Part shown: in pieces, positions 46,585 through 54,045 of the stretch
Numbering within the stretch: position 1 is the first letter of the stretch
Layout: every line of letters begins with the position of its first letter
Assembly: GCF_003315205.1 (NCBI RefSeq)
Contig: NZ_QNRR01000006.1
Coordinates: forward strand, 62,001-126,000
Length of the DNA stretch: 64,000 bases
Direction of reading: 5' to 3'
Origin: Roseimicrobium gellanilyticum
GTDB taxonomy: Bacteria > Verrucomicrobiota > Verrucomicrobiia > Verrucomicrobiales > Verrucomicrobiaceae
Notes under the pieces: model-generated
Told to the model about the DNA's origin: nothing
Database searches by the model: none
Seen by the model: only the letters and a program-made list of their open reading frames with translations
Program-made: the position numbers and the translations under genes

Positions 46585-47454
46585 ATGTTGAGAAACGCCA
46601 TCTCCATGGCAGCCGCTCTCCTCGCAGTGATGGGAGGAGGTTCTTCGATGGCGCAGGACGCCTCGCTGGTGAAGGCAGAGGAGCATGCCTGCATCTCTCC
46701 ATCGGAACGCTTCCGCATCGATCAGTATCACACCACCGGTGGAGATATCTGGGACTGGGAGTTTTGGGTTTCACGCAAAGGGGGCGCACCTCCAGTGAAG
46801 CTGTCTACGGGCGCTCGCGACCCAGCCATGTACGGCGCGGGGTTCTCTTTCCATCCCTCTGAGAAGTGGCTGCTGCGTACTCAGAAGACGGGCAGTGGGG
46901 ACAATGTTGTTGTGCTGTACCGGATCACCAAGCAGGAAACTTTCGTGCGAACAGATGCAGGAAGCACGCTTGATGAGCTGGCTTGGGCAGAGTTTGACAG
47001 GGTCTACTCGCTCGCGGGTGATGCCACCCAACGCTACCATGCGGGGTGCGGATTTCTCGGGTGGGAGCCGGATGGTGAAACGCTGCGTCTCAGGCTCACG
47101 GCCGCCCATTGCGGTGAGGCCTATCGCGCGGACTGGACCGTGCACTATCATCTGAAGACGAAGAAATTTTTCTTTGCGAGCGACGACCGCGCTCACAATA
47201 AGCGGCATGGACTGATCTGGAAGCCGCGAGGCAAGCTTGCAGTCAGCGCGCATGACGATCTCCGACTGCTCCGGGCAGGTGATGTGGTTTCGGTCCAATT
47301 CACCTCGGTGGGCCCGGAAAAGCACATGCTGACCGTGGGGCAGGACGGCTTTGTGAAAGTGCCTTACATCGGAAAAGTCAGGGCCGCAGGCCGTACCTGT
47401 CGGCAACTCGCCAACTTGATCAGAGTCGAAATTGAAAAGCAGTACTTTGGTTGA
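46585..47454 (+). CDS. Secreted protein ending in a Poly_export-like domain
   Basis: This 289-residue protein starts with a signal peptide (MLRNAISMAAALLAVMGGGS, cleavage near MAQD). Residues 30-215 are a beta-rich region of unknown function (FRIDQYHTTGGDIWDWEFWV, LRTQKTGSGDNVVVLYRITK). The last 64 residues (LRLLRAGDVVSVQFTSVGPE, then MLTVGQDGFVKVPYIGKVRA, then AGRTCRQLANLIRVEIEKQY) resemble the N-terminal Poly_export domain of Wza-like outer-membrane export proteins. In those proteins the domain is at the N-terminus and is followed by SLBB domains; here it is at the end and stops immediately after. It may be a fusion, a truncated exporter, or an independently used recognition domain. Confidence 0.6.
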   Translation: MLRNAISMAAALLAVMGGGSSMAQDASLVKAEEHACISPSERFRIDQYHTTGGDIWDWEFWVSRKGGAPPVKLSTGARDPAMYGAGFSFHPSEKWLLRTQKTGSGDNVVVLYRITKQETFVRTDAGSTLDELAWAEFDRVYSLAGDATQRYHAGCGFLGWEPDGETLRLRLTAAHCGEAYRADWTVHYHLKTKKFFFASDDRAHNKRHGLIWKPRGKLAVSAHDDLRLLRAGDVVSVQFTSVGPEKHMLTVGQDGFVKVPYIGKVRAAGRTCRQLANLIRVEIEKQYFG

Positions 47455-47455
47455 A

Positions 47456-47488
47456 GCTGCCGGGCAATCCTTGAAATCACCCGGCAGC
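47456..47488. terminator. Shared hairpin between convergent genes
   Basis: GCTGCCGGG (47456-47464) pairs perfectly with CCCGGCAGC (47480-47488). It lies between the stop of the plus-strand gene (47454) and the stop of the minus-strand EF-G gene (47521) and can end either transcript. No T-run on either side. Confidence 0.5.
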
Positions 47489-47520
47489 AAGCATCTATCG
47501 GACATGGAGTCGGCGCGTTG

Positions 47521-49629
47521 TTATGCCGCCATGGGAGCCCGCTCATACCGGGCAGGCTTCATGGTGTAGCTCGCACGGCCCTTGCTCAGGCTGCGAATGG
47601 CATCCGCATACCCGAAGAGTTCCGCGAGCGGCACTTCAGCACGCACGATGGTGGTGCCATTCTGGGCGGGCATCCCCAGCCCCAGCACCTGGCCGCGACG
47701 TCGGCTGAGGTCACCGAGGATGTCACCTTGATGAGACTCCGGCACGGTGCACTCCACGGCCATGAGAGGTTCAAGCAGCACTGGACGCGCCGCGCGCAGT
47801 GCCTCACGCGTGGCCTCGATGGCAGCCTGGCGGAAGGCCAGGTCGTTCGAGTCTTTTGCATGCGCGTGACCATCGAGGATGGTGACCAGCACATCCACCA
47901 CAGGACTGTCGCGCAGCACACCGGCAGTGAGTGCGGACTCGATACCCGCATGCACCGAGCGCATGAACTGCGAAGGAATGGCGCCGCCTTGCACGCGGTT
48001 CTCCACACGGTTGCCACTGCCCGCAGGCAGGGGATCCACACGGAGTGACACGCGGGCATAGCTGCCCGATCCACCGTTCTGCTTCTTCAGAAGGTGGTCG
48101 GCTTCGGCACTGCGTTCGATGGTCTCACGCCACGCAACCTGCGGAGCGCCGGAGTTCAGCGCCACGCGATGGTCGCGCGCGAGCTTGGTGAGCAGCACTT
48201 CGAGATGCAGCTCGCCCATGCCGGCCATGATGGTCTGTCCGGTTTCAGCGTCGGTGTAGGTGCGGAAGGTCGGGTCCTCCTCGGCGAGTCGTTGCAGGGC
48301 CACGCTCATGCGCTCGCGGTCCGCGCTGGTGCGTGGTTCCACGGCGAAGGAGACGACCGGTTGCGGGAACTGCGGAGGCTCCAGCGACACCACGGCATCA
48401 AGGTCTGACAACGTATCTCCCGTGAGGAAACCACGCAGTCCGACGACGGCGCAGATGTCACCTGCCTCAGCACGTGACAACTCCTCACGGCGATCCGCCA
48501 CGACACGCACCATGCGACCGATGCGCTCGCGCTGACCTGTGCGGGGATTCGCTACCGTCATGCCGCGCTCCAACACGCCACGATAGACACGCACATAGAC
48601 GAGGCGTCCGGCCTGCGAGTCATGCACCAGTTTGAAGGCAAGCGCTGCCAGCGGCGCGTCCACGCCGTTGTCCACGGAGATGGATTCACCTTCGTCATTG
48701 TGCGCTTCCGTCGTGCCGCGATCGAGCGGGGAGGGAAGGAAGTCCACCACCGCGTCCAACAGGGGCTCAATGCCGACATAGCGGTACGCGCTGCCACCAA
48801 TCACCGGCACGAATTTGCCGGCAAGGGTCTGGCGGCGCACCGCAGCTCGAAGCACCTCGTCGGGCACGGGCTGGTCATTCAGCCATAGCTCCGCCACCAC
48901 ATCGTCGAGCTCCGCGATGCGATTCACGAGTTCAGAGCGCAGTTCGGCAGCAGGGCCATCATCATCAGAGGGTCCTTCCTCTACCGTGCAGCTCTGCTGG
49001 GATTCTCTGGAGAAGATGTAGCGACGCTGGCTGATGACATCGACCTGGCCACGCAGGTTGTCCTCCGCGCCGAGGGGCGCGAGCACAGGCCAAGCGTTGG
49101 CGCCGAGCTGGGTTCGCAGTTGCTGCACCACACGCATGAAGTCCGCGCCGGTACGGTCCATCTTGTTCACGAACGCAAGTCGAGGCACGCCATAGCGGTC
49201 CGCCTGGCGCCACACGGTTTCAGATTGAGGCTGCACGCCATCCACACCGCTGAACACGGCAATCGCGCCATCCAGCACGCGCATGGATCTCTCCACCTCG
49301 GCCGTGAAGTCCACGTGGCCGGGTGTGTCGATGACATTCAGGGCATGACGCTGTCCCGCGAAGAGCTTGCTGATGCCAGTCTCCTCCCGTGGTGTCCAGG
49401 CACAGGGAATCGCCGCTGCGGAAATGGTAATGCCTTTGGCACGTTCCAGCGGATCGAAGTCAGTGGTGGTGTTGCCTTCATGCACGTCACCTGCGTGGTG
49501 GATCGCGCCGGCAGCGAGCAGGATGCGCTCCGTCAGCGTGGTCTTGCCTGCATCAATATGGGCCGCGATGCCGATGTTACGGATGCGTTCGCGTTGGGTG
49601 GCGGTTGCGGTAGTGTTGGTCGTTTTCAT
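47521..49629 (-). CDS. Elongation factor G paralogue
   Basis: This 702-residue GTPase has the EF-G motifs AHIDAGKTT (G1, residues 23-31), DTPGHVDFTAEVERSMRVLD (G3), NKMDRTGADF (G4) and the domain IV/V blocks GGAIPSQFMRSVHAGIESAL, DGHAHAKDSNDLAF and LSRRRGQVLGLG. EF-G catalyses translocation and, with RRF, ribosome recycling. The switch-I region reads ERAKGITISAAAIPCAW, slightly different from the canonical TITSAAT. It is not in an rpsL-rpsG-fusA cluster, so it may be a second, specialised EF-G. The ATG at 49629 is preferred; the in-frame codon at 49677 lies inside the leader. The 422-bp upstream region is unusual (see leader entries). Confidence 0.88.
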   Translation of the reverse strand: MKTTNTTATATQRERIRNIGIAAHIDAGKTTLTERILLAAGAIHHAGDVHEGNTTTDFDPLERAKGITISAAAIPCAWTPREETGISKLFAGQRHALNVIDTPGHVDFTAEVERSMRVLDGAIAVFSGVDGVQPQSETVWRQADRYGVPRLAFVNKMDRTGADFMRVVQQLRTQLGANAWPVLAPLGAEDNLRGQVDVISQRRYIFSRESQQSCTVEEGPSDDDGPAAELRSELVNRIAELDDVVAELWLNDQPVPDEVLRAAVRRQTLAGKFVPVIGGSAYRYVGIEPLLDAVVDFLPSPLDRGTTEAHNDEGESISVDNGVDAPLAALAFKLVHDSQAGRLVYVRVYRGVLERGMTVANPRTGQRERIGRMVRVVADRREELSRAEAGDICAVVGLRGFLTGDTLSDLDAVVSLEPPQFPQPVVSFAVEPRTSADRERMSVALQRLAEEDPTFRTYTDAETGQTIMAGMGELHLEVLLTKLARDHRVALNSGAPQVAWRETIERSAEADHLLKKQNGGSGSYARVSLRVDPLPAGSGNRVENRVQGGAIPSQFMRSVHAGIESALTAGVLRDSPVVDVLVTILDGHAHAKDSNDLAFRQAAIEATREALRAARPVLLEPLMAVECTVPESHQGDILGDLSRRRGQVLGLGMPAQNGTTIVRAEVPLAELFGYADAIRSLSKGRASYTMKPARYERAPMAA

Positions 49630-49710
49630 AACGAGGTACGGTTTCTTGTTTGGGTCCTGCCACGTGTGCGTCCTCACATAGCGGTGGTTTGCGGCACATC
49701 CCCGGAACGC

Positions 49711-49741
49711 AAAAAAAGCCCTGGAGAAGGTCTCCAGGGCT
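49711..49741 (-). terminator. Strong intrinsic terminator inside the EF-G leader (probable attenuator)
   Basis: On the minus strand AGCCCTGGAGA (49741-49731) pairs perfectly with TCTCCAGGGCT (49727-49717), loop of three bases, followed by six more T residues (49716-49711). The plus strand lacks a T-run after this hairpin, so it acts in the EF-G direction. No minus-strand gene is present upstream, so it lies between the EF-G promoter and the EF-G start 82 bp further on. That is the layout of a transcription attenuator. Confidence 0.75.
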
Positions 49742-49765
49742 CTCAGGGAAAGTCGTTGCTGCGAA

Positions 49766-49789
49766 TCAGGCGGCCGGGCTGCGGCGCAT
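49766..49789 (-). CDS. Candidate 7-codon leader peptide upstream of the EF-G paralogue
   Basis: On the minus strand, ATG CGC CGC AGC CCG GCC GCC TGA encodes MRRSPAA. A purine-rich AAAGGA lies 9-10 bases before the ATG, and a very short ATGACTTGA frame overlaps it. The stop is 25 bases before the terminator stem at 49741. Short leader frames in front of terminators control several ribosome-acting genes (tet(M)- and erm-type) by ribosome stalling. This example rests on position and RBS only, so chance cannot be excluded. Confidence 0.35.
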   Translation of the reverse strand: MRRSPAA

Positions 49790-49817
49790 CAAGTCATGTC
49801 CTTTCACGAGACACGAC

Positions 49818-49906
49818 GAAGGCCCCATCAGTGGGCCTCGGCCTGACTGCACGCAAAAGCATCCCTGCCCTGGCGACAGCCAGGGTGCTGAATGCAGTTG
49901 CGTGCA
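49818..49906 (-). promoter_or_regulatory. Structured 5' leader of the EF-G paralogue
   Basis: A nested hairpin is present: outer arms TGCACGCAA (49848-49856) and TTGCGTGCA (49898-49906), inner arms CCCTGGC (49868-49874) and GCCAGGG (49879-49885). Nearer to the gene, AGGCCC and GGGCCT (49819-49838 region) form another stem. With the terminator this makes a leader of about 300 nt with at least three stems. A weak TTGACT/CATCTT promoter (about 49955-49928) lies upstream. Confidence 0.55.
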
Positions 49907-50051
49907 ACGGGGAACATATGGTGAAAAGAAGATGCGGGTATTCCTGCAAAAGTCAATTACGCCGACACTCACACAGCGGGCGCAATTCCACCTCCCTCCC
50001 AATTGGGTTCTTTTCTTGTGAGTGGAGTTTTGCTTGGTACGATGTGCACTG

Positions 50052-50651
50052 ATGCAGCTTCCCCTCGATTTGGACGTCAGCAGAAAGTCGTATCTGGAGC
50101 TGCTCTGTGAACACGCCAAGAAAGGGTTGTATCAGCTCAAGCCCGGACCGAGTGCAGAAGACTGGGCGAGGTGTGAGGAGGATCTCGGTGTCCGATTGCC
50201 GGATAGTTTCAAGGTAATTGCCACAACGTTTGGGCCTGGTGTATTCGGAGACTACATCAGCCTGTACGGGCCAAATCGCCGGGATGAGTGGCGACGCCTA
50301 ACTAATCATTGCCAGAGTGTGGCGGGTGACAGACTGGCCCAATTGTACCCGGGGCATGAGTTCTATCCTCATGCAGGGGGCATTCTGTTGTTTGCCTCAT
50401 TTTCTTACCGATTACTTGCAGGATTTCAGGGATTGGAAAGTAAAGTAGGAACGGTGTCCAGAGGCTCAAAACCCAAGATTGTTCTCATAGAGGACTCTGG
50501 AGTGGAGGTTCTAACAGTGGATTTTGCCGAGTTCCTCTATAGAATAGTATTCAATAAGCCGCGCATGAGAGGACCCATCTCAAGGTCCCTTCACACGAGA
50601 CTCTACTTCCACAAGCAGGGGCCGTGGTTCAGGCCTGAAGAGTGCCAGTGA
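50052..50651 (+). CDS. SMI1/KNR4 (SUKH) family protein
   Basis: This 199-residue protein has the SUKH pattern: an acidic, aromatic N-terminal segment (EDWARCEEDLGVRLPDSFKV, residues about 37-56), then ATTFGPGVFGDYISLYGP with the glycine-rich turn, and later GHEFYPHAGGILLFASFSY. SUKH proteins are often immunity partners of polymorphic or contact-dependent toxins, although many are orphans. No toxin or secretion gene is adjacent. Its AT-richer codon use and position next to a structured spacer fit an acquired gene. The start is ATG 50052; the frame begins earlier at 50022. Confidence 0.65.
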   Translation: MQLPLDLDVSRKSYLELLCEHAKKGLYQLKPGPSAEDWARCEEDLGVRLPDSFKVIATTFGPGVFGDYISLYGPNRRDEWRRLTNHCQSVAGDRLAQLYPGHEFYPHAGGILLFASFSYRLLAGFQGLESKVGTVSRGSKPKIVLIEDSGVEVLTVDFAEFLYRIVFNKPRMRGPISRSLHTRLYFHKQGPWFRPEECQ

Positions 50652-50737
50652 GCTTCGTCAGCAAACACCATGGGATGGTCTTCCAGAGAAAATGAAGGGT
50701 ACGCTTCATCACAAATCACCGCCATGAAACGATGATG

Positions 50738-50774
50738 GCGGGAGACAGGCACATGATAGCGCCTTGTCTCCCGC
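50738..50774. terminator. Hairpin between two convergent genes
   Basis: GCGGGAGACA (50738-50747) pairs perfectly with TGTCTCCCGC (50765-50774), enclosing GGC/GCC. It is 87 bp after the SUKH stop and 46 bp after the stop of the opposite gene, so it can end both transcripts. Confidence 0.5.
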
Positions 50775-50819
50775 ATGCAATGGCTCACCTCCTTTCCGAA
50801 ATTCAATCCTCCCTTCCGC

Positions 50820-51497
50820 TCACGCTCCCAGGTGCAGGTACTCGCGCAATGTGTAGTTCATGGCACGGCGCACGGGTGGAAATGCTTCAGAGAGCTTCAT
50901 GAGCACGTCATGCAGCGCGAACTCCGAAGCCAGGATGTGTTTGGCTGCGGCGGAAAGGTGATTCATCACCACGCCGTCGTAGAACTTCACATCTGGAGCG
51001 CCCTTCCTCTCTGCACGGTGATGCAGGAAGGAGGGATACAAACACGTGAGTACCAGGAACTGGTTGGCGCACTGCACATGGATGAAAAATCGCTCGTGGT
51101 TTCCCGCGCTCTCCAGGGCCTGGAGATAGTCCACGCTGTACAGGCTGGCCTTTTCCTGCTCGCGGTCCGCGGAGGGGTTGGTGGGCACGCCGAAGTCGGC
51201 ACAGACCACGGCCACGTAGTCCGCCACCTCGAGGTCCTCAACGCCGATGCGTTTCAGTGTCTGTCGCACCACCACGAAGAAGAAGAGCTCCGGAGAGACC
51301 AGCGCCGCTCGCTGGTTCATGAGCAGCGCCTCGAACAATCGCGGTTCGTCCGCGATGGATCGCACGGCGTCCGGGTCGTCGCCGAGCTTGGCGAGGCTTG
51401 TACGATTGCGCTCGGAGAGCGCGAGAATATCGCCGATAAACTGCCAGTCGGCAGGGGTGAAGCGATACCAGCAGCCGGGTTGGGGGACTCGCATCAT
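50820..51497 (-). CDS. Conserved hypothetical protein, mostly helical
   Basis: This 225-residue protein starts MMRVPQPGCWYRFTPADW (two adjacent ATGs at 51497 and 51494; 51497 chosen). No signal peptide or membrane helix. The sequence is helical with IGDILALSERNRTSLAKLGD, VSPELFFFVVVRQTLKRIGV, FGVPTNPSADREQEKASLYS, VQCANQFLVLTCLYPSFLHH and the end PPVRRAMNYTLREYLHLGA. Such a profile, with several His and Cys, could be a small regulatory or ligand-binding protein, but no family is recognised. The frame upstream to 51740 has low-complexity arginine-rich codons and overlaps the divergent hydrolase, so it is not used. Confidence 0.55.
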   Translation of the reverse strand: MMRVPQPGCWYRFTPADWQFIGDILALSERNRTSLAKLGDDPDAVRSIADEPRLFEALLMNQRAALVSPELFFFVVVRQTLKRIGVEDLEVADYVAVVCADFGVPTNPSADREQEKASLYSVDYLQALESAGNHERFFIHVQCANQFLVLTCLYPSFLHHRAERKGAPDVKFYDGVVMNHLSAAAKHILASEFALHDVLMKLSEAFPPVRRAMNYTLREYLHLGA

Positions 51498-51664
51498 AGG
51501 GATGAAACGATGTCTAGCATTGGGTATGCCAGATGGTTTTACAGGATTCGACGAAGGATGGGAAGTCTTTGTTCGAAGCCACCTTGAGAAAATAATTCCT
51601 GTCCAGAAATCCATGGACGTGGCAGTCCTGTGCCGCCTGATTGCAGACCCGCCGCCTTCCCGCC

Positions 51665-52930
51665 ATGTCCTCCTCACTTTGCATTTCGCTTCGTCCTTTC
51701 CTTGCCGTCCTCTCTTCCGTCTCCTTGTGGATCGCCCCAACCAAGGCGGTGGCAGATAATTATTTTCCGCCGCCGGATAACGAGGGCGGATGGCGCACGC
51801 CGGAGGACGAGAAAGAGGCGCGAGACCAGGCGGGTATCGATCTCTCCAAGCTGGAGCCCGCCTATGAAGTGACCCAGCGCTCCACTGCGCACGGTGGCCT
51901 GCTGGTGGTGAGGCGCGGTTATCTTTGCTTTGAGCGCTACTTCGGACGCGCCAGCCGTAATGCGAATCCCGACATGGCGTCCACCGGCAAGGCCTTTACC
52001 AGCATCGCCTGCGGCATCATGCTGGATGAGTTCAAGGACAAGCTTCCTGATGGACTGGACACAAAGGTCTTCACCGAAAAGCACCTGCCCGAGGCCTTTC
52101 CTCTCAATGATCCGCGCAAGGCGGACATCACCCTTGGCCAGCTCCTCTGCATGACCGGTGGCTATTGGGGCGAAGGTCAGGCTCCCTCAGGCTACAAGAA
52201 GGGTGTGGCCAAGCCCGAGCCCCTGAAGCCGGTGAAGGGGCAGGACATCCGCGACCTCGACAAGTCCTCCCTCAATGTTCCCCTGTGGTGCGACCCGGGC
52301 GCGGGCTATTCCTATTCCTCCCCCTCACCACACATTGCCAGCATCGTGCTCCGCCACGTGACAGGTATGGAACTGCAGGACTATCTGCAGGCGAAGCTTG
52401 GCAAGCCCCAGGGCTGGGGTGCATGGGGCTACTGCCTGCACCGTGGTGACTTCCTCATGCCGCATGCCAATGGCGCTGGCAGCACCGCGTTGCATGCCAC
52501 GGATGCCGTGCGCTTCGGCTACTGCCTCGCCCAAGGGGGCAAGTGGAAGGATCAGCAGCTCGTGCCCGCGGACTACATCAAGAAATGCCAGACCTGGAGT
52601 CCTTACAATCCACACACGCCCTTCAGCCTGCAGTGGGAGCACAATGCGGACGGCCACGTAGCTGGCGCGCCGAAGGACGCCTTCTGGAAATCCGGTGCCG
52701 GTGGCTTCTGCCTCTATGTCGTGCCTTCGCTCGACCTAGTCATCTACAAGCTGGGCGGCAAGGACGGTCAGTATGACCCGGCCCTCACCGGTCTGCCCCA
52801 GCCGCCACTCAATCTCGACCGCGACAACTGGCAACCCATTCCGGCCACCGGTTTCCATGAGGGAACGCTCGGTGGGCAGGCGCTGTGGCGCGTGCTGGAG
52901 ATGGTGTGCGCGGCAGTGCGGGTGGACTAG
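51665..52930 (+). CDS. Second secreted serine hydrolase (class C beta-lactamase-like fold)
   Basis: This 421-residue protein has a signal peptide ending near KAVAD. The nucleophile motif is STGK (Ser106, Lys109 within ASTGKAFTSIACGIMLDEFK), and the second motif is YSS (Tyr217) in GYSYSSPSPHIASIVLRHVT. The later PFSLQWEHNADGHVAGAPKD and AFWKSGAGGFCLYVVPSLDL correspond to the third motif region. YSS in place of YxN is characteristic of EstB-like esterases rather than beta-lactamases. Substrate unknown. Its stop (TAG) overlaps the HD-Pnk stop by 4 bp over a shared CTAG. Confidence 0.8.
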   Translation: MSSSLCISLRPFLAVLSSVSLWIAPTKAVADNYFPPPDNEGGWRTPEDEKEARDQAGIDLSKLEPAYEVTQRSTAHGGLLVVRRGYLCFERYFGRASRNANPDMASTGKAFTSIACGIMLDEFKDKLPDGLDTKVFTEKHLPEAFPLNDPRKADITLGQLLCMTGGYWGEGQAPSGYKKGVAKPEPLKPVKGQDIRDLDKSSLNVPLWCDPGAGYSYSSPSPHIASIVLRHVTGMELQDYLQAKLGKPQGWGAWGYCLHRGDFLMPHANGAGSTALHATDAVRFGYCLAQGGKWKDQQLVPADYIKKCQTWSPYNPHTPFSLQWEHNADGHVAGAPKDAFWKSGAGGFCLYVVPSLDLVIYKLGGKDGQYDPALTGLPQPPLNLDRDNWQPIPATGFHEGTLGGQALWRVLEMVCAAVRVD

Positions 52931-54045
52931 CTGCCTTCCACAAAGGTGATGCCATGACACTCCGTGATGTCCGGCACTTCCATCTTCGCAGCCAGCTTGT
53001 GAATCACACTTGAGGGTACCGGGTCAGGTCGTTTTGCGTTCTGGCGCAGCACGGTGGTGAGCGTTGGCTCGATGTGGACGATCTCGATGCGCGCACCGTA
53101 GTCGGCAAAGAGATCGATCCACTTCTTCCGCACACTCGTGGTGACGTTCGTCGCGTTGAAGGCGAAGTCCGCCCCGGCACGCAGGTGCTGACGGCAGCGC
53201 TCACGCGCCTCCTGGATCACGTGCCCCTGGTTGTCCGTGGCATCCACATCAAGATCTTCACGGATGGCATCGAGAGCGACCACGGGGAGGGTGGGGCGGT
53301 ACTTCGCCAGCCAGGTGTCTTTGCCAGCACCGGGCAGACCACACATCATGGTGACTGCGCAGCGGTAGTCTTCATGTGGGATGTAGTGGAGATTGCCACC
53401 TGCCTGCCGCAGGAAAAGGAATCGCGCCTGACCATTGGCGAAATCATAGGGCGCATCCAGACAGTGGAGTTCCGTGGCCAGGTCCTGCCAGAGGTGGAGT
53501 GCTTCCTCCGGACGGCTCATCTCACGGGTATCGCGCCCCCGCGTGTCCGCCAGCGCGAAGAGATACAGCAGGCGATTCCGTAGCAGGCAGGAAAGTCGAA
53601 TCACCTCATGCTCGGGAGCGCTTTTCTCAAGAAGGTAGGGCGGCCTGCCATGGTAGCGGACCAGATGCGCAATCTCCTCCCGCAACTCCAGTGGACAACC
53701 CACCTCACGCAACACCTGCCTCGCTAGCGAGGCTCCGACGATGGAATGTTTTGGGGAACGCAGTCGTCCGCTTTCGGGGTCCCGCGCTGTGGTGGCAGGC
53801 TTTCCCGCATCATGCAGCAGGGCGGTGAAGAGCAGCTTGAGTTGCGACAGGCGGTCCAGGTCTGCATACTCATCCAGCATCTCCACCTGATGCCACACCA
53901 TGGTGGTGTGCGTCCACACATCCCCCTCGGCATGCCACTCCGAGTCCTGCTGGCACGAGCGCATGTCATGAGCCCACGAGGTCTGCCCGGCCCAGGCCAG
54001 CAGCTCGGCATTGGTTGATTTCAAGATGTCCTGCCAGTTTCTCAT
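52927..54045 (-). CDS. HD-Pnk type bifunctional RNA/DNA end-healing enzyme
   Basis: This 372-residue protein joins an N-terminal HD phosphohydrolase to a C-terminal P-loop kinase. The HD pair is His78-Asp79 (LLFTALLHDAGKPATT), with supporting His46 and His52, and further metal-binding residues in HLVRYHG. The kinase part has GLPGAGKDTW (236-245, Walker A) and VVALDAIREDLD, then a lid-type FNATNVTTSVRKKW (296-309) as in polynucleotide kinases. The same order is known from Runella slithyformis HD-Pnk, where the HD part removes 2',3'-phosphates and the kinase part phosphorylates 5'-OH ends. The RNA ligase gene is 14 bp upstream, so both probably form one repair operon. Confidence 0.85.
   Translation of the reverse strand: MRNWQDILKSTNAELLAWAGQTSWAHDMRSCQQDSEWHAEGDVWTHTTMVWHQVEMLDEYADLDRLSQLKLLFTALLHDAGKPATTARDPESGRLRSPKHSIVGASLARQVLREVGCPLELREEIAHLVRYHGRPPYLLEKSAPEHEVIRLSCLLRNRLLYLFALADTRGRDTREMSRPEEALHLWQDLATELHCLDAPYDFANGQARFLFLRQAGGNLHYIPHEDYRCAVTMMCGLPGAGKDTWLAKYRPTLPVVALDAIREDLDVDATDNQGHVIQEARERCRQHLRAGADFAFNATNVTTSVRKKWIDLFADYGARIEIVHIEPTLTTVLRQNAKRPDPVPSSVIHKLAAKMEVPDITECHGITFVEGS

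Follow-up and report, generated by a model that had tools for sequence, protein, structure and literature searches.

The window analysed here, a stretch of 64,000 nucleotides from Roseimicrobium gellanilyticum (contig NZ_QNRR01000006.1), carries on its minus strand a gene for a paralogue of elongation factor EF-G, and shortly before the start of that gene stands an intrinsic transcription terminator. What is a terminator doing in the leader of an EF-G gene? The reading that we favour, and consider probable, is that the leader is a ribosome-mediated transcription attenuator, in which ribosomes slowed near codons 7-10 of a short upstream ORF would cause antitermination and so switch EF-G on. The gene (47521..49629, minus strand) encodes 702 aa; its start codon, ATG 49629-49627, was chosen by comparison with orthologues, and the match to profile TIGR00484 was read from 49677. 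The protein scores 827.4 bits against TIGR00484, above the curated cut-off of 659.4. The same assembly holds a second EF-G, about 50% identical to the paralogue, which lies behind rpsL and rpsG as recognised by eye. The two best named matches came from Opitutia and Opitutales MAGs, at 48-49%, in a comparison from which nearer records may be missing; they point to a verrucomicrobial genome.

Read along the minus strand toward EF-G, the leader consists of TTGACT (49951..49956), a candidate –35 box, then a leader ORF of 29 codons, MFPVARNCIQHPGCRQGRDAFACSQAEAH (49828..49917), that contains a hairpin, then two stems, and finally the terminator, a perfect 11-bp stem (49741-49717) with a loop of 3 and a run of seven T (49717-49711). 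The initial annotation had recognised this terminator and placed it 82 bp before the EF-G start; from the end of the T-run to the ATG we measured 81 nt. When both strands of the 64 kb window were scanned for perfect stems of 10-16 bp with at least 5 G/C and a loop of 3-8, before a run of at least six T, this was the only site returned. A looser scan of 47000-53000 scored it with 14 pairs, and terminator-like sites in that interval were no commoner than in shuffled sequence (3 found vs 4.4 expected). The two additional stems that had been reported upstream of the terminator are also present, between the leader end and the terminator: AGGCCC/GGGCCT (49838-49833 with 49825-49820) and GTCGTGTC/GACATGAC (49817-49810 with 49800-49793). 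The second of these occurs with changed letters in G061, the other member of the window's genus, as GTCATGTC/GACATGAC. In folding against 200 shuffles, the region 49960-49704 was more stable than every one of them (z -5.55, 0/200), and neither the window leader nor loci L081, L097, L098 and L139 gave a match at the Rfam gathering score. The annotation had further argued that no minus-strand gene lies upstream to need the terminator; this holds for ORFs of at least 150 aa, the nearest of which ends at 50820, more than 1 kb away, and shorter mechanically called ORFs do occur there, for example one of 117 aa at 49766-50119.

The neighbouring genes were considered as a functional clue and set aside. 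A few kb from EF-G on the minus strand, an RNA ligase (PF09414, 54060-54809) adjoins a protein with HD and AAA_33 domains (52927-54045), which from their domains may form an RNA-repair-like pair. Both have homologues close to the paralogue in G019, G032 and G038, and in G061 a homologue of the HD/AAA gene is found there; with the RNA ligase in 4 of 18 neighbourhoods and HD/AAA_33 in 5 of 18, the occurrences are too few to guide interpretation. Divergent from the EF-G leader, on the plus strand, lies a gene for an SMI1/KNR4 (SUKH-like) protein (50022-50651), at 24.6 bits just under the cut-off of 25.4.

Relatives show whether the arrangement is peculiar to the window. Among 68 genomes of the family, complete orthologues of the paralogue at 60% identity or more numbered 13, window included, and partial ones were found in G038, G048 and G005; a broken copy in G032 and a copy in G070, from another family of the order, were recovered through the RNA model described below. 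In a 288-genome sample of the order, the paralogue was found at E 1e-236 or better in 14 genomes. EF-G matches of 51-54% in G158, G159 and G172, at the same E level, were rejected as canonical fusA behind ribosomal protein genes, as judged by eye. Upstream DNA is available for 17 of these 18 paralogue genes, that of G005 ending at a contig edge. The window's genus contributes two of the 17 leaders, genus g9 eleven, genus g11 three, and G070 the last; many of them are near-copies of one another, and together they represent three genera of the window's family and one genus of another family. All 17 have the TTGAC box, a leader ORF, the hairpin and a terminator with an alternative pairing to that hairpin. 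In an EF-G tree, 13 paralogues form one group (support 100/100). The window's genus branches first within it under a midpoint root, so the arrangement probably dates back to the ancestor of the paralogue group, with the provisos that this root serves for drawing only and that the program warns of meeting long branches. The G070 paralogue (L167) nests among g9 rows (support 90/66), and could have been acquired by gene transfer along with its leader. The EF-G frame is broken in G032 (L135) and has one in-frame TAA in G034 (L095), as either decay or assembly error would produce.

A covariance model, R1, was built from 12 leaders and run on the 288 genomes of the order, with 10 first-look candidates scored per genome. 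It gave 16 matches, one per genome: 15 ahead of the EF-G paralogue, namely the 12 training leaders and three new ones (G032, G048, G070), and a single chance terminator. That the hairpin derives from a repeated, REP-like element is not favoured, given a single match per genome in the 16 under that scoring. In the window's genus R1 recovers the terminator alone (E 0.13), and among 387 sampled genomes of the wider phylum, the window's own included without a match, it matched one, a training genome. A DNA search with the window leader found 2 of 68 genomes, the window's own and its sister.

Conservation also bears on which ORF could act as the sensor. The initial annotation had assigned this role to a mini-ORF, MRRSPAA, and both the frame (49766..49789, minus strand) and an AAAGGA shortly upstream of it exist in the window. 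The frame was seen in two genomes; G061 reads MCRNPAA, with two of the seven codons changed and AAAGGA altered to AAAAGA, and the 12 other leaders of alignment A1 have a gap where its start and first codons would be. MRRSPAA is probably not functional, and we give next to no credence to its being the sensing peptide. The proposal of a leader-ORF attenuator upstream of EF-G survives, in that such an ORF is conserved in relatives; it is a different one, beginning 128 nt upstream of the MRRSPAA start. This ORF (49917-49828), its internal hairpin, and the complementarity of the hairpin 3' arm to the terminator 5' arm had not been part of the earlier account.

Outside the window's genus the leader ORF has 23-25 codons (for example MTPRVLKIVSSARLRPGLGMTMS, MKPRVLKIIQSALLRQGLGMTWSFS and MQYRVIKTIHSALLRQRHGMTLS) and is intact in 15 of 15 relatives, with TAA, TAG or TGA as the stop, a GTG start in place of ATG in G032, and one extra codon from a 3-nt insertion in three genomes. 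The window and G061 each have 29 intact codons and an equal stop position, and differ by one synonymous and three amino-acid changes, a pattern that does not prove coding; their peptide has diverged, without a confident alignment to those of the other genera. An alternative frame in the window, FSTLAVARAGM..., was rejected for lack of a good start, two genomes being too few to decide between frames. Across 12 distinct rows, the share of synonymous changes was 0.37 vs 0.22 in column shuffles (44/2000 as high), and when split the signal was weaker (198/2000 for codons 2-11, 112/2000 for codons 12-23). The N-terminal half of the peptide is variable (RVLKI or RPLIIIF) and the conserved half overlaps the RNA structure, and the coding signal is modest. 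The TTGAC box starts 39-42 nt before the leader-ORF start in all 17 leaders, and TTGAC, TATAAT and TAAAAT are absent between the terminator and the EF-G start in all 17. A sigma-70 scan called no promoter at the window leader, where the –10 hexamer is poor. From the spacing, transcription would start a few nt before the leader ATG; since the distance from TTGAC to ATG leaves little untranslated sequence ahead of it, the ORF may be nearly leaderless, with the same reservation about the –10 hexamer.

These observations bear on the alternative that the attenuator is switched without translation of the leader, by EF-G itself, another protein or a small molecule, the ORF being incidental. The strong, conserved RNA structure would suit such a switch, as would the modest coding signal. 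It would not explain why 15 of 15 ORFs stay intact despite the insertion in three of them, the change from ATG to GTG in one, and the use of three different stops, nor why the distance from TTGAC to the start is nearly constant, and the Rfam comparison offered no known element; we judge it unlikely.

The pairing potential of the leader is what the ribosome-mediated attenuator would act through. In the window, the hairpin within the leader ORF (1:2; 49867..49885, minus strand, predicted fold) joins segment 1, CCCTGGC (49885-49879), to segment 2, GCCAGGGC (49874-49867). Segment 3, GCCCTGG (49734..49740), is the 5' arm of the terminator (3:4) and the alternative partner of segment 2. An equivalent of hairpin 1:2, with 0-2 mismatches, is present in 15 of 15 leaders of alignment A3, and the terminator has a counterpart in 17 of 17, with a T-run of T4-T7. 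For the alternative 2:3, 96.4% of cells are paired over 15 relatives, and two pairs are changed on both sides (G:C to A:U and U:A to A:U), both in G070. Two double changes were reached in 9 of 500 shuffles, and slid versions of the pairing were 21-66% paired with zero double changes. Of these pairings, 2:3 alone accounts for the U:A to A:U change, because the drawn terminator stem does not extend to it and in 1:2 it disrupts the end pair. Comparison of relatives, which the initial annotation had suggested as a check, bore out the terminator and the 2:3 pairing, with covariation from one genome, and failed to bear out MRRSPAA. The leader combines the features of its class: a terminator before the gene, downstream of a putative promoter; a predicted antiterminator that uses the 5' arm of that terminator; and a conserved short ORF over the switch.

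To follow the switch we used masked folding, in which the 5' part of each of the 17 leaders is hidden as if under a ribosome. With masking to the best point in nt 36-45, the probability of 2:3 before segment 4 is made was at least 0.97 in 17/17; with masking to nt 57 or beyond it was zero in 17/17. Unmasked, it was at most 0.01 in 11 of 17 leaders and 0.24-0.98 in the other 6. Once segment 4 was included, masking to nt 36-45 brought the terminator under 50% in 12 of 17 leaders. In the window and G061 its probability stayed at 1.0 whatever the masking point, and in G035, G032 and G070 it remained above 0.5 throughout; in G027 it reached only 0.40 unmasked. In five of 17 leaders, the window's included, equilibrium folding thus favours termination however far the leader is masked, so antitermination in these five would need kinetics. 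Dinucleotide-shuffled leaders passed a similar masking test in 9 of 150 cases (window), 13 of 150 (G060) and 10 of 100 (G034), and the window leader itself narrowly misses the strict cut (0.12 vs 0.10); the case therefore rests on conservation and not on the window alone. The preference for termination in those five leaders is what one would expect of a partial terminator that works constitutively and does no more than hold down the level of the second EF-G, or of an unregulated leader, and so is a T-run of just four in 11 of 17. Such an element would give no role to the conserved 2:3 pairing with its two double changes, and we consider it very unlikely.

For a ribosome-mediated attenuator, ribosome position is predicted by the folding model to set read-through, as follows. 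RNA polymerase would start just upstream of the leader ORF, at the putative start. With no ribosome, or with a ribosome front past about nt 57, either hairpin 1:2 or the covering of segment 2 would leave segment 3 free; terminator 3:4 would then form, and the transcript would stop at about 49711. A ribosome lingering early, with its front at nt 36-45 and its P site at about codons 7-10, the footprint of the ribosome converting front edge into codon number, would cover segment 1, so that 2:3 could pair before segment 4 is synthesised and polymerase would continue into EF-G. Slow elongation would in this way yield more of the second EF-G, whose domain-IV tip is unlike that of the housekeeping copy. 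The comparison shows the parts and their conservation, the alternative pairings, and how masking alters predicted folding; from these we infer the promoter and where transcription starts, that the ORF is translated, that stalling is the signal, and that EF-G is induced. Going by the sequence, EF-G is plausibly induced by translation stress.

Loops I and II of EF-G domain IV meet the decoding centre. In loop I, most paralogues read KQNGGSGMYARV (GSGSYARV in the window, GQGSYARV in G061) against KQSGGRGQYGHV in the 14 canonical rows shown, and in loop II they read HAKDS, HSKDS or HVKDS vs H(D/E)VDS. In all, 13 paralogues are told apart from 34 other EF-G sequences at 19 positions (at least 90% one residue per set), and the G-domain motif DTPGH is retained. 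As the altered loops are those that contact the decoding centre, a changed translocase is likely. These conserved changes would also fit a drug-specific attenuator, in which the leader peptide is stalled by a particular antibiotic that targets the ribosome, and the paralogue confers protection, as tet(M) does against tetracycline; tetM is a ribosomal protection gene placed under a transcription attenuator in the table of PMC5418344. The paralogue scores 355.1 bits against the tetracycline ribosomal protection profile NF012153 (tet_protect), well below its cut-off of 775, and the residues of leader codons 7-10 are not conserved. A drug-specific device is, in our estimate, improbable.

A further conserved feature would act after read-through. 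In 12 of 17 leaders (all but the window, G061 and the three g11 leaders), the sequence that follows the leader stop is joined by 20 further pairs to the sequence immediately preceding the EF-G start. Of these pairs 97.5% are kept, a value matched by 48 of 500 shuffles, with two double changes (10/500 shuffles), again in G070; one slid version reaches one. The three g11 leaders have a comparable long helix of different sequence in predicted folds, and in the window's genus only a short flanking helix, CCCCG/CGGGG or CCCUG/CGGGG, was recognised by eye. The long helix is predicted to bring an AGGA-like site 3' of the leader stop near the EF-G ATG; that this serves as a ribosome site is speculation, and several predicted folds pair it with leader codons. 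The leader may be a homeostatic sensor of early elongation rate that needs no special peptide; as a second layer after read-through, the long helix would place the leader stop beside the EF-G start codon and couple the two translation events. We put this forward tentatively, as a possibility that we rate on the doubtful side. If true, the sensor would correct slow elongation by supplying an EF-G whose decoding-centre tip is different. More generally, a conserved switch tying the second EF-G to ribosome slowing would show when that factor is needed and make its role testable. The analysis also yields a covariance model of the RNA element, which matched no Rfam family in the loci scanned and lies ahead of a clade of EF-G paralogues with altered domain-IV loops.

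In trp-type attenuators, pairings 1:2, 2:3 and 3:4 are combined with a leader ORF that runs through segment 1. The EF-G leader shares this layout; unlike the trp type, its 17 peptides share no run of codons for one amino acid by eye (three have three Ile codons), and the ORF spans segments 1 and 2 and ends beyond them. The leaderless trpL of Sinorhizobium, as described in part of PMC7298713, provides an attenuator RNA that begins at the leader ATG, a start that we infer here, and serves amino-acid biosynthesis, unlike the EF-G leader. PMC3150367, which treats EF-G paralogues subfamily by subfamily, lacks the word Verrucomicrob in its main text, and the Bacteroides fusA2 paper PMC6989115 lacks the words leader, terminator and attenuat. 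Among the matches listed by a literature search with most subscription journals outside its range, titles and abstract openings named no attenuator of an EF-G paralogue. The initial annotation had known of no described attenuator for EF-G. That is too broad, as a terminator-based candidate between rpsG and fusA of the streptococcal str operon was predicted in 2010 (PMC2965389), likewise with a predicted terminator and antiterminator ahead of an EF-G gene; the passages on this fusA/rpsL-leader candidate mention no leader peptide, and the paralogue here lies outside the str operon. Attenuators that sense stalling are listed in passages of PMC5418344 for tetM, bmrCD, lmo0919 and ribosome methylase genes. 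For bmrCD and lmo0919, ribosome-targeting antibiotics are reported there to permit read-through into the resistance gene; unlike the EF-G leader, these control transporter genes in other organisms, and we liken them by that description. With tet(M) (Su et al., 1992, via the table of PMC5418344) the likeness is one of layout: it likewise places an attenuator ahead of an EF-G-related translational GTPase, whereas the target here passes the EF-G cut-off and not that of the tet profile.
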